Shown one piece after another: positions 48,985 through 54,652 of a DNA stretch of 64,000 bases. Each line of letters starts with the position of its first letter. Position 1 is the first letter of the stretch. The notes under the pieces were generated by a model, which saw nothing but the letters and a program-made list of their open reading frames with translations, ran no database searches and was not told the origin of the DNA. The stretch comes from Mycolicibacterium cosmeticum (GTDB lineage: Bacteria; Actinomycetota; Actinomycetes; Mycobacteriales; Mycobacteriaceae): NCBI RefSeq assembly GCF_000613185.1, contig NZ_CCBB010000001.1, positions 1,302,001 through 1,366,000 of the forward strand, written 5' to 3'. The position numbers and the translations under genes were made by a program.

Positions 48985-49653
48985 TTACGTCGCCGCCGCG
49001 GTCTGTAATGCGAGTCGGGTTTCGGCGGCCGCCCGCAGCACCGCGAAATCGCCGTCGTACCCCAGCGTGCGCAGCGCGCCGTCGGCGCTGATCCACGGTT
49101 GGTCGGGCGGGCAGGCCCCGTCGTCGGACCGCCGGTTGATGGTCGACTCGGCCAGCCGGAACGGCAGATCGTCGGCGTCGGCGGGCCCCGCGTACTCGGC
49201 GATCACCGTCGCGGCCAGGACGCGATAGCGCTCGCGCAGTTCGGCGCGCCGGCGGCGGAACTGCCCGAACCGGTCCACCCGGAGTTCGGGCAGCAGGTAC
49301 AGCGCGCCCAGGTTCCATCGGCTGCCGCACAGCTGGGTGACGTCCGCGACGATCAACGTGTACAGCTGCCCCGCCGCGGGGCCACCTTCGCCGTCGAGTT
49401 CGGCGGCCAGCCGCAGGGGCGCCTCCACCGTGCCCGCCAGCAGCGCGTCCAGGATGTCGTCCTTGGTGGCGAAGTGGTGATAGAGCGAGGCCTGCCGCAT
49501 CCCGACGGCGTCGGCGATCCGCCGGGTGGAGGTGTTGGCGTATCCGTGCTCGGTGAACAGTTCCGCCGCGGCGTCGAGGATCTCGTCGCGCGGGGTGTGC
49601 CCCGGCCTGCGGGGTTGCTCGAGCCTCGGACGTCCACGGCCATCGGTGCTCAT
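48985..49653 (-). CDS. amtR: TetR-family regulator, AmtR-type nitrogen regulator
   Basis: This 222-residue TetR protein has the helix-turn-helix TSTRRIADAVGMRQASLYHHFATKDDIL. Its N-terminal GRPR...PRREILDA-like region and the ligand-domain stretch SRWNLGALYLLPELR strongly resemble corynebacterial AmtR, the repressor of nitrogen-assimilation genes. In M. smegmatis an AmtR homologue is encoded near panB, as here, and controls urea-type degradation genes. A perfect AmtR-type palindrome lies 24 bases upstream of this gene and 83 bases before the divergent DUF1989 operon, so it probably represses both. Confidence 0.85.
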   Translation of the reverse strand: MSTDGRGRPRLEQPRRPGHTPRDEILDAAAELFTEHGYANTSTRRIADAVGMRQASLYHHFATKDDILDALLAGTVEAPLRLAAELDGEGGPAAGQLYTLIVADVTQLCGSRWNLGALYLLPELRVDRFGQFRRRRAELRERYRVLAATVIAEYAGPADADDLPFRLAESTINRRSDDGACPPDQPWISADGALRTLGYDGDFAVLRAAAETRLALQTAAAT

Positions 49654-49676: not shown

Positions 49677-49700
49677 AATTTCTATCGTTTGATAGAAATT
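49677..49700. promoter_or_regulatory. AmtR-type operator
   Basis: A perfect inverted repeat with 10-bp arms (49677-49686 and 49691-49700) and a 4-base spacer contains TTTCTAT-N6-ATAGAAA, the corynebacterial AmtR box. It sits between the divergent amtR and DUF1989 operon. Confidence 0.8.
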
Positions 49701-49782: not shown

Positions 49783-50526
49783 ATGGCAGAAACCAGTTCG
49801 ACCGAGGGTGCGCGGTCCCACGCTCGCGCCCAGGCCGCCACGGCGGCGCTGCGCGTCCCCCAGACCCCGAACGGAGTGACGGAGCTGCGGTGGGCCGAGG
49901 TAGTCCCGGCAGGCTCTTATGCCACCGCGGTGCTGGGCCGCGGAACCCGGCTGCGGCTGGCCGACCCCGCCGGCGGCGCCTGCGCCCACCTGCTGCTGTT
50001 CCGCGCCGACGCCCCGTGGGAGCGGCTCAACGTGGCCGATACCGTCAAGGTGCCCTGGCAGGCGTATCTCGGCACCGGCCATCCCCTGCTGTCCGATCAG
50101 GGCCGGGTACTGGCCACCGTCGTCGCCGACACGTCGCACCGGCACGACACGCTGTGCGGACCGACGCCGGCCGGGCAGGCGCAGCTACTGCTGGGTGTGC
50201 ACAAGCACGGGCTGGACATCCGCGACGTCGCGCCGTCGGTGTCGTTCTTCAAGGGCACCCACGTGCAAGCCGACGGCGGCATCGCCTTCACCGGCACCGC
50301 GGGACCCGGAGGTTCGGTCGACCTGCTGGTGCATCTGCCGGTGGTGGTCGTGTTGTCCAACAGCGCGCACCCGCTCGACCCCGAACCCGAGGTGACCGAT
50401 CTGGACGTGCTGGCCTGGCGCGCCGACGACGAATTGCACACCCCCGCCAACGACGCCCCCGAATACCTGCGCGCCCTGTTCAACACCGAAAGTACTTGGG
50501 CCGCAGCACGAAACGGAGACTTCTGA
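49783..50526 (+). CDS. DUF1989 protein UAAP1 (carboxyguanidine deiminase-type subunit)
   Basis: This 247-residue DUF1989 protein belongs to the urea amidolyase-associated UAAP1 group. DUF1989 pairs beside urea/guanidine carboxylase have been shown in pseudomonads to be carboxyguanidine deiminase subunits (CgdA/CgdB). Visible marks are GARSHARAQA near the N-terminus, DTSHRHDTLCGPT, SFFKGTHVQADG and LSNSAHPLDP; the cysteine pair of the partner is absent here. A perfect AAGGAGG lies before the ATG. It is the first gene of the AmtR-flanked operon and overlaps the next gene by one base. Confidence 0.85.
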   Translation: MAETSSTEGARSHARAQAATAALRVPQTPNGVTELRWAEVVPAGSYATAVLGRGTRLRLADPAGGACAHLLLFRADAPWERLNVADTVKVPWQAYLGTGHPLLSDQGRVLATVVADTSHRHDTLCGPTPAGQAQLLLGVHKHGLDIRDVAPSVSFFKGTHVQADGGIAFTGTAGPGGSVDLLVHLPVVVVLSNSAHPLDPEPEVTDLDVLAWRADDELHTPANDAPEYLRALFNTESTWAAARNGDF

Positions 50527-51128
50527 TGACCACGTTCGAGGTGCCCGCACGCGCACCCTGGTCGGCCGTCGTGCCCGCGGGCCACACGCTGCAGATCGTC
50601 GACCTGCACGGCAACCAGGCCGTGGACACCCTGTTCTACGGGGTCACGCAGGGCCGGCCCGATCCGGCATTGCGCTACAACGCGCAGACAACCGTTGCCG
50701 CCCAACGCAATATCTTCCTGTCCACCGGCTCGGTGCTGCGCGCCTCGGACGGCACCGCCCTGATGACCATCGTGGCGGACGAGGTCGGCAACCACGACAC
50801 CATCGCGGGTGCCTGCTCCAAGGAGTCCAACACGCTGCGCTACGGTCACCACACCGTGCACCAGCACGCGTGCGCGGAGAACTTCCTCGCCGAGGCCACC
50901 CGGTGGGGCATGGGCAAGCGCGACATCGTGTCCAACGTCAACTTCTTCATGTACGTGCCGGTGGAGGACGACGGCACCCTGGGCATCGTGGACGGCCTGT
51001 CGGCGCCGGGCAAGTCGCTGACCCTGCGTGCCGAGATCGACACGCTGGTGCTGGTGTCCAACTGCCCGCAGATCAACAACCCGTGCAACGGTTTCAATCC
51101 GACACCGGTGCAGATGGTGATCGCGTGA
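50526..51128 (+). CDS. DUF1989 protein UAAP2 (carboxyguanidine deiminase-type subunit)
   Basis: This 200-residue DUF1989 protein pairs with the preceding gene. Candidate metal or catalytic residues lie in GNHDTIAGACS, HQHACAENFL and SNCPQINNPCNGFNPTPV; the last is a conserved signature of UAAP2-type proteins. The start overlaps the previous stop (TGATG) and the stop overlaps the GTG of the carboxylase-like gene, so all three are translationally coupled. The likely role is deimination of a carboxylated guanidine-type compound releasing ammonia, inferred from family and context. Confidence 0.85.
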   Translation: MTTFEVPARAPWSAVVPAGHTLQIVDLHGNQAVDTLFYGVTQGRPDPALRYNAQTTVAAQRNIFLSTGSVLRASDGTALMTIVADEVGNHDTIAGACSKESNTLRYGHHTVHQHACAENFLAEATRWGMGKRDIVSNVNFFMYVPVEDDGTLGIVDGLSAPGKSLTLRAEIDTLVLVSNCPQINNPCNGFNPTPVQMVIA

Positions 51129-53134
51129 GCACCAACCTCGTCGAGGTGCTGCGCCCCGGCATGCTCACCACGGTGCAGGACTGGCCCGGCCGGATCGGAT
51201 TCTGGCACATCGGCGTCCCGCCCTCCGGACCGATGGACGACCTGTCGTTCCGGATCGGGAACCGGGTGCTGGGCAACGCCGAAGGCCTGGCCGGGCTGGA
51301 ATGCACCCGCAGCGGGCCCGCGCTGCGTTTCCCCGACGGCGGCCGGGTCTGTGTGACGGGCGCACCGGTGCCGGTGACGGTGGACGGTGTGCGGGTGCCG
51401 CAGTGGCAGTCGGTGACCGTGCCCGCCGGTGGCGTGCTCGACGTCGGAACGCTGTCCGGGCCCGGCATGCGCTGCTACGTGCTGGTGGCCGGCGGGTTGG
51501 TGGAGCCCGAATACCTGGACAGCACAGCGACGTTCACCCTGGGATCGTTCGGTGGGCACGATGGTCGGGCGTTGCGTGCCGGTGACGAGCTACACGCCGG
51601 ACGCGACCCCGGGCCGCACCAGGACCGGCCGGACCGCGACGCCAGGGCGGCCATCGACGAACAGCCCAGCATCGGGCACCGCTGGGAGATCGCGGTCACC
51701 GAGGGGCCGCACGGCGCGCCGGAGTTCTTCACCCGCGCCGACATCGACACCATCATCGGCACCGACTACACGGTGCACTTCAACTCCGACCGCACCGGTG
51801 TGCGACTGGAGGGCCCCAAACCGCAGTGGGCCCGCACCGACGGCGGTGAGGCCGGCCTGCACCCGTCCAACATCCACGACAACGCCTATTGCGTGGGTGC
51901 GCTCGACTTCACCGGTGACACACCGATTCTGCTCGGCCCCGACGGCCCCAGCCTGGGTGGCTTCGTCTGCCCCGTCACCGTCGTCGGCGGCGACCGCTGG
52001 AAGCTGGGCCAGCTCGCGCCCGGCGACACGGTGCGATTCGTCCCGGTGCGCGCCGACCGGGCGCCCTCGCTGCGCAGCATCGACATGGATCGCCGGGCGT
52101 CGTTCCCATGGGTGCAATCCACCGGCGGCGACGGCGACGACGGTGTGTTGGGGCGGTTCAGCGCCGCCGACGGCACCGAGGTGACGATGCGCCGGGCGGG
52201 CGACGGCGGTGTCCTCGTCGAATACGGGCAGATGGTGCTCGACCTCGTGCTGCGGGCGCGCGTGCACGTGCTCTACGAACACCTGCTGGCGCTGCAGGTC
52301 ACCGGGGTCACCGAGCTGACGCCGGGTGTGCGCTCACTGCAGGTGCAATTCGACCCGGCCGTGCTGTCCATGGCCGAGGTGGTCGACCTGATCGCCCGTA
52401 CCGACGAAAGCCTGCCTGCCTCAACCGAATTGGTGGTACCCAGCCGCACCGTACGGCTGCCGCTGTCGTGGGACGATCCGGCCACCCGCGAGGCCATCCA
52501 GCGGTACATGCACGGCGTGCGGGCCGATGCGCCGTGGTGCCCGTGGAATATCGAGTTCATCCGCCGGGTCAACGGCCTGGCGGATGTGGCACAGGTGTAC
52601 GACATCGTGTTCGACGCCGAGTATCTGGTGCTGGGCCTGGGCGACGTGTACCTGGGCGCGCCGGTGGCCACTCCCCTGGACCCGCGCCATCGCCTGGTGA
52701 CCACCAAGTACAACCCGGCCCGCACCTGGACCCCGGAGAACGCCGTGGGGATCGGCGGGGCGTACATGTGCGTCTACGGCATGGAGGGTCCCGGCGGCTA
52801 CCAGTTCGTCGGACGCACCACCCAGGTGTGGAATCACCGGCATCCGGCCGACTCGCAGTCCTTCGAGCCGGGCACGCCGTGGTTGCTGCGCTACTTCGAC
52901 CGGATCAGCTTCTACCCGGTGAGCGCGGACGAGCTACTCGATCTGCGCGCGGACATGGCGGCCGGGCGCGGACAGGTGCAGATCGCCGACAGCCAGTTCG
53001 ACCTCGGTGGGTACCGTGACTTCCTGGCCGCACACGCGGACTCGATCGCGAGCTTCCGCGCCCAGCAGGCCGCCGCGTTCGGCGCCGAGCGACAGGCCTG
53101 GGACCGCGCCGGCGAGTTCCGCCGAGCGGGCTGA
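51125..53134 (+). CDS. Urea/guanidine carboxylase-like protein with carboxyltransferase domains only
   Basis: This 669-residue protein contains an AHS2/PxpC-like domain (about 1-310; HIGVPPSGPMDDLSFRIGNRVLGN) and then an AHS1/PxpB-like domain (about 345-590; GVTELTPGVRSLQVQFDP, LGLGDVYLGAP). This order is that of urea/guanidine carboxylase. The N-terminal biotin carboxylase (about 450 residues) and the C-terminal biotinyl domain are both missing; the protein ends where the biotinyl linker would start. Allophanate hydrolase is also absent. The GTG at 51125 overlaps the upstream stop. It may work with a separate biotin carboxylase/carrier subunit or have a different reaction. Confidence 0.88.
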   Translation: MSTNLVEVLRPGMLTTVQDWPGRIGFWHIGVPPSGPMDDLSFRIGNRVLGNAEGLAGLECTRSGPALRFPDGGRVCVTGAPVPVTVDGVRVPQWQSVTVPAGGVLDVGTLSGPGMRCYVLVAGGLVEPEYLDSTATFTLGSFGGHDGRALRAGDELHAGRDPGPHQDRPDRDARAAIDEQPSIGHRWEIAVTEGPHGAPEFFTRADIDTIIGTDYTVHFNSDRTGVRLEGPKPQWARTDGGEAGLHPSNIHDNAYCVGALDFTGDTPILLGPDGPSLGGFVCPVTVVGGDRWKLGQLAPGDTVRFVPVRADRAPSLRSIDMDRRASFPWVQSTGGDGDDGVLGRFSAADGTEVTMRRAGDGGVLVEYGQMVLDLVLRARVHVLYEHLLALQVTGVTELTPGVRSLQVQFDPAVLSMAEVVDLIARTDESLPASTELVVPSRTVRLPLSWDDPATREAIQRYMHGVRADAPWCPWNIEFIRRVNGLADVAQVYDIVFDAEYLVLGLGDVYLGAPVATPLDPRHRLVTTKYNPARTWTPENAVGIGGAYMCVYGMEGPGGYQFVGRTTQVWNHRHPADSQSFEPGTPWLLRYFDRISFYPVSADELLDLRADMAAGRGQVQIADSQFDLGGYRDFLAAHADSIASFRAQQAAAFGAERQAWDRAGEFRRAG

Positions 53135-53206
53135 GCCGTTTGTTCACCTGGATGTGGCAACCTGTTCACGACTTTCGACAGTGACTTCGTCCAGACAAAG
53201 GTGAAA

Positions 53207-54652
53207 ATGCCTGCTGCCAAGCCCAAGACCGCCCGCTATACCGAGGTGGAACGCAAGTTCGACCTGCTGGAAACCACGGTGTCCCCTTCGTTCGAGGGGC
53301 TGGCCGTCGTGACACGGGTGCAGCATTCACCGACCCAGACGCTGGAGGCGGTCTACTACGACACCGCCGGCTACGACCTGGCCGCACGCAAGATCACGCT
53401 GCGCCGTCGCACCGGAGGCAGTGACGCGGGCTGGCACATCAAACTGCCCACCACCGGTGCCGACACCCGCACCGAGGTGCGGGCCGCCCTGGCCGACGCG
53501 GTGCCCAAGGAGATTCGCGACGTGGTGGCCGCGATCGTGCGCGATCGGCCCCTGCAGGCGGTGGCCAGGATCACGACGCAGCGCTCGGTGTCGCTGTTGT
53601 TCGGCGCCGACGGCACCCCGCTCGCGGAGTTCTGCGACGACAACGTGACGGCCTCGGCGCTGCGCCCGGACAGTGAACCGCAGGTGTGGCGGGAGTGGGA
53701 GCTGGAGCTGGTCGGCGGCGGTTCGCCGGAGGTGCTGGAGCGGTTGGCCAACCGGCTGCTGGACGCCGGCGCCGTCCCGGCCGGGCACGGATCGAAGCTG
53801 GCCAAGGTGCTCGACGTCGCGGTGCCCGAGCCGGCGCCGGTCTCGGCGGACCCGGTGCATCGGGCCATCGCCGAGAACGTCGACGCGCTGCTGGTGTGGG
53901 ACCGTGCCGTGCGCGCCGACGCGTGGGACGCGGTGCACCAGATGCGGGTCACCACCCGCAAGATCCGCAGCCTGCTGGCCGAGGAATCGGGCCCCGAGAA
54001 CACCTGGATCCTGGACGAGCTCAAGCAACTGGCCGCGGTGCTGGGGGTGGCCCGCGACGCCGAGGTGTTGGCGGACAAGTACCAGCGCGCCCTGGATTCG
54101 CTGCCCGCCGATCTGGTGCGCGGTCCGGTGCGCGAGCGGCTGGTCGAGGGCGCCAAGCAGAAGTACAAGGCCGGCTGGCGCCGGTCGGTGGCGGCGATGC
54201 GCTCCGAGCGGTACTTCCGGCTGCTCGACGCGCTGGACGCCGTGGTCGCCGCCGCCCCCGCCGCCGCCGGCGGCGCGGAGTCCCAGCCCGTCACCGTGGA
54301 GAGTGCCTACCGCAAGGTGAAGAAGGCGGCCAAGGCGGCCGAGGCCGAGGGCACCGACGAGGCACTGCACCGAATCCGCAAGCGCGCCAAGCAGCTTCGC
54401 TACACCGCCGCCGCACACGGTGACACCGCGGTGGCCGACAGCGCCAAGACCATCCAGACGTTGCTCGGCGATCACCAGGACAGTGTGGTCAGCCGCACCC
54501 ACCTGCTGGCGCAGGCCGACGCCGCACACGCCGCGGGCGAGGACACCTTCACCTACGGCCTGCTGTACCAGATGGAGGCCGAGGTTGCGCTCTACGCCGA
54601 AGACGAGGTCGGCGCCGCGCTGAAGGCACTGCGCAAGGCGGTGGGCAAGTAG
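53207..54652 (+). CDS. CYTH-CHAD domain protein (Rv2226-like)
   Basis: This 481-residue protein has an N-terminal CYTH (triphosphate tunnel) domain with EVERKFDL and later basic and acidic tunnel residues. A C-terminal CHAD domain (about 210-480) is rich in conserved basic residues (VHQMRVTTRKIRSLL; HRIRKRAKQLRYTAAAHG). CYTH domains act on triphosphates; CHAD domains bind polyphosphate, so a polyphosphate-related role is likely. The ATG at 53207 has AAAGG five bases upstream; a GTG at 53201 is possible. It ends just before the convergent rnpB. Confidence 0.92.
   Translation: MPAAKPKTARYTEVERKFDLLETTVSPSFEGLAVVTRVQHSPTQTLEAVYYDTAGYDLAARKITLRRRTGGSDAGWHIKLPTTGADTRTEVRAALADAVPKEIRDVVAAIVRDRPLQAVARITTQRSVSLLFGADGTPLAEFCDDNVTASALRPDSEPQVWREWELELVGGGSPEVLERLANRLLDAGAVPAGHGSKLAKVLDVAVPEPAPVSADPVHRAIAENVDALLVWDRAVRADAWDAVHQMRVTTRKIRSLLAEESGPENTWILDELKQLAAVLGVARDAEVLADKYQRALDSLPADLVRGPVRERLVEGAKQKYKAGWRRSVAAMRSERYFRLLDALDAVVAAAPAAAGGAESQPVTVESAYRKVKKAAKAAEAEGTDEALHRIRKRAKQLRYTAAAHGDTAVADSAKTIQTLLGDHQDSVVSRTHLLAQADAAHAAGEDTFTYGLLYQMEAEVALYAEDEVGAALKALRKAVGK

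Follow-up and report, generated by a model that had tools for sequence, protein, structure and literature searches.

We analysed a 64,000-nucleotide stretch of the Mycolicibacterium cosmeticum genome (contig NZ_CCBB010000001.1, positions 1,302,001 to 1,366,000; hereafter the window, with coordinates counted from its first letter) that carries a compact operon of the guanidine carboxylase type. Three plus-strand genes with overlapping starts and stops encode the DUF1989 proteins UAAP1 and UAAP2 and a carboxyltransferase (CT) without biotin carboxylase (BC) or biotin carboxyl carrier protein (BCCP) domains, and a gene for an AmtR-like TetR protein is divergent from them. Because this CT-only form is widespread among relatives and well conserved, it is probably supplied with carboxybiotin by the carrier of some other enzyme in the cell. 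The host genome is 6.46 Mb, and among the matches listed the nearest named relative is Mycolicibacterium sp. J2, whose CT protein is 96% identical. The locus comprises the following features:

48985..49653, minus strand: AmtR-type TetR repressor, 222 aa (Pfam TetR_N; best solved match M. smegmatis AmtR 5e57, 318 bits)
49680..49697, no strand: palindrome TTCTATCGTTTGATAGAA, candidate AmtR operator, between the divergent amtR and UAAP1
49783..50526, plus strand: UAAP1, DUF1989, carboxyguanidine deiminase-type subunit by family score, 247 aa (TIGR03425 232.9 bits, cut-off 205.95)
50526..51128, plus strand: UAAP2, DUF1989, carboxyguanidine deiminase-type subunit by family score, 200 aa (TIGR03424 309.9 bits, cut-off 284.7)
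51125..53134, plus strand: CT-only carboxyltransferase of guanidine-carboxylase type, 669 aa (TIGR02712 partial match, CT_A_B and CT_C_D)

The coupling of the DUF1989 pair described in the initial annotation is borne out by a TGATG overlap at the UAAP1/UAAP2 junction and a GTGA overlap at the UAAP2/CT junction. Both proteins pass their TIGR cut-offs, by which they would be CgdA/CgdB-type subunits of a carboxyguanidine deiminase with a predicted deiminase activity. The best solved match of the TetR protein likewise agrees with its earlier assignment to AmtR.

The CT protein aligns to positions 446-1112 of the 1201 of TIGR02712 with 963.6 bits, whereas a full guanidine carboxylase combines BC, CT and BCCP in one protein and scores above the cut-off of 1303.85 bits. 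Its only Pfam domains are CT_A_B and CT_C_D, so that just the CT half is retained, as had been proposed. Alignment to the K. lactis urea amidolyase (5i8i) places D261, D507 and K528 of the CT at K. lactis positions 1330, 1584 and 1605. Asp at 1330 and 1584 has been used to tell guanidine from urea carboxylases (PMC11410670), with Asp at 1330 in the former and Asn in the latter (PMC12186494), and Lys1605 is the likely general base (PMC5770610). The CT of the window has both Asp residues and the catalytic Lys, and does not have the Asn of urea carboxylases. By this published residue rule it is guanidine-type rather than urea-type, in line with the substrate suggested earlier, and is predicted to carboxylate guanidine. 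We further note that among the full-length enzymes the Asp rows have a UAAP gene in the stretch examined at all loci except L133, the only Asp-type full-length copy without one nearby, and that no UAAP gene lies in the stretch examined for the 8 Asn rows among the 30 full-length ones. An AlphaFold model of the CT had a mean pLDDT of 58.5 and was not used.

Across the genus, 80 of 198 genomes have a match at E<=1e-40, of which 54 carry the CT-only and 25 the full-length form; one genome (G145) carries both, L133 and L134, and counts in each, and the remaining matched genomes hold a contig-edge fragment (G008) and a relative at only 38% (G160). The two forms were separated by open-frame length in all genomes, and 38 of the 54 CT-only ones were also checked by tblastn for BC beside the CT. 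At E<=1e-100, 78 of 397 genomes sampled from the order and 16 of 396 sampled from the phylum have one form or the other. In a tree of 163 rows (from 206 extracted rows, with short rows and near-copies dropped), 120 CT-only rows fall in one clade with an SH-aLRT support of 100; 119 of them have Asp1330 and one, L098, has a gap there. In a 34-row tree, the CT-only Asp clade (12 rows, support 100/99) is nested among full-length Asp-type enzymes. This placement suggests that BC and BCCP were most likely lost and the CT kept. A second CT-only clade is supported at 97/96 in the same tree, where a single origin for both CT-only clades is rejected (p-AU 0.0002, for groups defined in the light of the first tree and with long branches in play). 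The tree is unrooted, and its second clade may have changed in either direction.

Conservation of the CT is high in the CT-only form. The 30 full-length rows share 148 invariant columns, and 142 of these reach a retention of >=95% across the 120 CT-only rows. Mean retention of invariant columns is 99.4% in 119 scored CT-only rows versus 100% in nine full-length sister rows, so the constraint on the CT-only form is very slightly looser. The ratio of nonsynonymous to synonymous substitution rates (dN/dS) of the CT against eight relatives is 0.07-0.31, and in nine pairs it is 0.01-0.21 for CT, UAAP1, UAAP2 and TetR (seven of the pairs are from genomes whose search gave no allophanate hydrolase, and the other two, of named Mycolicibacter, lie outside that search). 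In CT-only rows with a CT identity of at least 71.9%, UAAP2 keeps at >=95% 84 of the 98 columns invariant in 12 full-length operons (two of them are gaps), and UAAP1 keeps 49 of 69. Low dN/dS and the 54 CT-only genomes together rule out a strain-specific pseudogene; the truncation confined to this strain that the initial annotation had named as a counter-case is thus not what is found, though sister lineages are full-length. Separately, a lone CT homologue in another genome (L239/L243, G667) has Ala, Glu and Arg at 1330, 1584 and 1605, lies among ribosomal-protein and RNA-polymerase-like frames with no UAAP gene seen, and is, judging by these features, probably not a carboxyltransferase.

No BC gene was found near the CT in 113 of 119 CT-only loci (flanks of 2.5 kb or more on either side, with some genomes entering twice), while the remaining six, all Mycolicibacter-type (L121, L122, L177, L182, L189 and L199), have a pyruvate carboxylase beyond amtR. 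A looser BCCP search matched eight of the 119 loci, seven of them Mycolicibacter-type and read as pyruvate carboxylase, and one weak and without a biotin motif. For these 119 loci a BC or BCCP in a neighbouring gene is rejected, apart from the pyruvate carboxylase of one lineage; in the window itself neither was found adjacent, which removes the other counter-case raised at the outset. The Mycolicibacter-type loci with a pyruvate carboxylase near the CT belong to a subgroup that is mostly without allophanate hydrolase and urease. A further conserved neighbour gene is not supported by a comparison of 27 chosen loci either. There the frame families present in at least five loci are UAAP, CT, AmtR, one read as a permease (17 loci) and the hydrolase (5, an undercount), and the other shared frames are antisense frames and genes in up to 7 loci that resemble plain synteny.

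Elsewhere in the host genome, our search found no second urea/guanidine-type CT; the single other CT_A_B match has a PxpB-like frame beside it and looks like PxpC. Five strong BC matches (455-549 bits) are present, which from their frames and neighbours may be read as an MCC-type alpha subunit, two further alpha subunits, an AccA3-like one and a pyruvate carboxylase, and there is one small free-standing BCCP. In 30 genomes searched with TIGR02712, with at most 15 candidates scored per genome, the mean number of BC genes is 4.47 in 15 CT-only genomes, 4.6 in 10 CT-less ones and, leaving the enzyme itself out of the count, 4.6 in 5 full-length ones. No dedicated extra BC gene was thus seen among the best 15 candidates of each of the 15 CT-only genomes. 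This suggests that the BC partner, if any, most likely belongs to the set that is also present in CT-less genomes, and that any alpha partner would need to be a housekeeping protein shared with other enzymes.

We therefore favour, as the probable though far from certain reading, a guanidine carboxylase split over separate proteins: the CT would be its carboxyltransferase subunit, and a shared housekeeping biotin carboxylase/carrier would serve it in trans. Carboxybiotin would be made elsewhere by a shared BC-carrier protein, such as an AccA-type alpha subunit or possibly the free-standing BCCP, and the biotin arm of this carrier would serve the CT in trans. The CT would then transfer the carboxyl group to guanidine, and UAAP1/UAAP2 would deiminate carboxyguanidine to allophanate and ammonia. 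An unlinked allophanate hydrolase would split the allophanate, which may decarboxylate to urea where that enzyme is missing. AmtR would repress the operon. Two alternatives had been offered initially, a separate alpha subunit and a different, biotin-independent reaction; the first is favoured, but in the form of a shared protein as no dedicated alpha subunit was seen, and the second is less favoured.

This arrangement can be compared with two known systems. Like the guanidine carboxylase/CgdAB/allophanate hydrolase pathway, the operon has Asp1330, Asp1584 and Lys1605, a DUF1989 pair and the gene order UAAP1-UAAP2-carboxylase; unlike it, BC and BCCP are missing from both polypeptide and neighbourhood, and hydrolase and permease lie outside the operon. 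In the split actinobacterial acyl-CoA carboxylases (AccA alpha plus AccD beta), the CT is also on its own polypeptide and one alpha subunit serves several betas, whereas AccD CTs belong to another family than the urea/guanidine-type CT, for which the literature covered describes no pairing with such an alpha subunit. Indeed, AccA3 is described as common to several CT subunits in mycobacteria (PMC11001197, PMC4347857), which by analogy would be a precedent for sharing, and not for this CT family.

The lack of a BC or BCCP nearby (the pyruvate carboxylase of one lineage excepted) and of an extra BC gene in the 15 genomes would also fit an enzyme whose CT fold needs no biotin donor and now both binds and activates its substrate, be it guanidine or another guanidino compound. 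Homologous PxpB/PxpC (KipI/KipA) act in 5-oxoprolinase without biotin. They share CT_A_B and CT_C_D without BC/BCCP, and such BC-less relatives of the CT fold occur in the same genome. Unlike the CT, however, they are two separate genes; the CT is a fusion that scores 103.5 bits against the PxpC model NF045499 (cut-off 500), and the genome has its own PxpB/PxpC-like pair. The near-complete retention of full-length invariants, general-base Lys included, argues against a biotin-independent enzyme, as does, weakly, a 56-residue local match to the PxpB-like protein of the genome in which this Lys aligns with Arg, a mild change. We consider such an enzyme unlikely. Since the CT retains its known catalytic residues and almost every invariant column, the term "biotin-free" used initially is unsupported as a description of the reaction.

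A second CT-only family offers a separate view of the substrate. At position 1330, Met is found in ten CT-only loci that belong to other families of the order, and Ile in two that belong to another class. These loci have UAAP-type genes and a hydrolase, with no BC nearby in the stretches examined, and the Met-type rows keep 132 of the 148 full-length-invariant columns. A guanidine-I riboswitch lies upstream on the same strand in seven of the ten Met-type loci (L088, L089, L090, L091, L092, L094 and L095); L096 has none, and the other two without it, L093 and L097, are short contigs. The riboswitch is independent, regulatory evidence that links this CT-only enzyme with guanidine, though the enzyme's 1330 residue differs from the published one, and the published Asp/Asn rule thus leaves out a riboswitch-linked Met type. 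At gathering score, a search of 20 more loci, which were Asp-type, Ile-type or full-length, gave no guanidine riboswitch.

The company of pathway genes differs between CT-only subgroups. The allophanate hydrolase model has 15 matches in the host genome and none in the window; one of them, at C1:812840-814432, is a full-length hydrolase (596.7 bits, above cut-off) unlinked to the operon. The absence of allophanate hydrolase stated in the initial annotation thus holds for the neighbourhood and not for the genome, which also has urease. Another match, at C1:66412-67665 (L073 8274-9683), is an amidase-only allophanate-hydrolase relative of 496 bits, followed by a frame resembling a purine/cytosine-type permease. 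In the genus survey (TIGR02713, E<=1e-150, best 6 candidates per genome scored), the hydrolase is found in 24 of 25 full-length genomes and in all 22 genomes of a distant CT-only group, against 4 of 118 CT-less genomes, a co-occurrence that speaks for the favoured reading. The closer CT-only group has it in 10 of 32, the genome of the window among the 10. Distant here means a CT identity of <=70% and closer >=72%, a grouping chosen after the survey and not beforehand. With all candidates scored at E<=1e-120, 10 of 11 closer-group genomes were again without the hydrolase. Urease is present in all 13 hydrolase-less Mycolicibacterium-like genomes of the closer group; it is also found in 22 of 22 distant CT-only, 24 of 25 full-length and 71 of 118 CT-less genomes, and thus shows no specific link to hydrolase loss. 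The gap between AmtR and UAAP1 is below 600 bp in 44 loci and a permease-sized 1.7-3.4 kb in 59, and permease-like frames are present inside the wide gaps of the more distant loci while the closer group has no such room. The permease and, in most of its genomes, the hydrolase are thus dispensable in the closer group, where UAAP1-UAAP2-CT is kept.

Several observations weigh against a split guanidine carboxylase served in trans. At the above threshold, the hydrolase is missing from 22 of the 32 genomes in the closer group, to which the window belongs, and 8 of the 9 Mycolicibacter-like members have neither hydrolase nor urease, so that the textbook pathway is incomplete there. No guanidine riboswitch was found in the window at E<=1, in the Asp-type loci searched or in the two Ile-type CT-only loci. 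The partner itself is one that we infer, and the CTs of the known AccA clients are from another family. In a study that used every alpha and beta subunit for pull-downs in M. smegmatis, the word "urea" is absent from the main text and the pull-down passages name no such CT, although the operon may have been off (PMC4347857).

The hydrolase-less genomes could also point to a recycling of the carboxyl group, in which UAAP1-UAAP2-CT would be self-sufficient on a small pool of borrowed, carboxylated carrier used catalytically. The CT would carboxylate guanidine, UAAP1/2 would deiminate the product to allophanate and the CT would retrieve the carboxyl group to leave urea, for a net guanidine + H2O -> urea + NH3 that needs neither net BC action nor allophanate hydrolase. 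This would account for UAAP1-UAAP2-CT being the core kept, under purifying selection, in hydrolase-less lineages. However, the CT would have to accept the urea end despite carrying the Asp of guanidine-type enzymes, and all 22 genomes of the distant CT-only group possess the hydrolase; as every step of the scheme would be conjecture, we regard recycling as quite improbable. Least probable of all is that the operon of the closer group is no more than a remnant or has taken on another role, for example partial detoxification or work on a different substrate, as the missing permease, the narrow AmtR-UAAP1 gap and the hydrolase losses might suggest, because the guanidine-type Asp is kept, dN/dS is 0.05-0.16 over four pairs of hydrolase-less genomes of this very group, and UAAP2 retains most of its reference columns.

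Another close counterpart is the AmtR-regulated "urea carboxylase" operon of actinobacteria. The M. smegmatis operon msmeg_2184-2189 is described as encoding AmtR, two unknown reading frames, a "urea carboxylase", an amidase and an amino-acid permease, under the control of AmtR and GlnR in a strain that did not grow on urea (PMC4222082). Domain loss is undiscussed in that account, whose main text has "biotin" once, for the medium, and "guanidin" never. R. equi has been credited with an ATP-dependent urea carboxylase (PMC6852188), and the equi record in our set (L226) is CT-only with Asp, a point unmentioned in that statement. The open-access titles and abstract openings searched, a coverage that most subscription papers fall outside, gave no description of a guanidine carboxylase without BC. 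In the literature covered, urea/guanidine-type carboxylases are single chains with their own biotin machinery, while the CT-only family is widespread and well conserved; searches that demand a full-length model will miss its genes. A 2011 study left open whether homologues of the urea carboxylase CT (UCT), apart from those that bring a BC of their own, cooperate with the BCs of other enzymes (PMC3199775), and this question becomes testable with a CT-only family whose operon has a likely function. If the proposed sharing is true, an unusual CT fold served in trans by a housekeeping alpha subunit would link the use of guanidine nitrogen to acyl-CoA carboxylases; the alternative would be a CT that does something new.

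In the regulatory region, 103 of the 111 CT-only Asp-type loci longer than 9 kb have an AmtR-like gene that is divergent from UAAP1 and lies no more than 4.5 kb from it. The candidate operator is less widely shared. The palindrome TTCTATCGTTTGATAGAA at 49680-49697 is the single exact TTCTATN6ATAGAA in the genome, the same pattern with one mismatch occurs at 2 places, equal to a reversed control pattern, and the core CTATN6ATAG is found upstream in only 21 of 111 relatives' loci. Downstream of the operon, a gene for a CYTH-CHAD protein, a family absent from those common to at least five of the 27 chosen loci, lies at 53201-54652 on the same strand, 66 bp beyond the CT.

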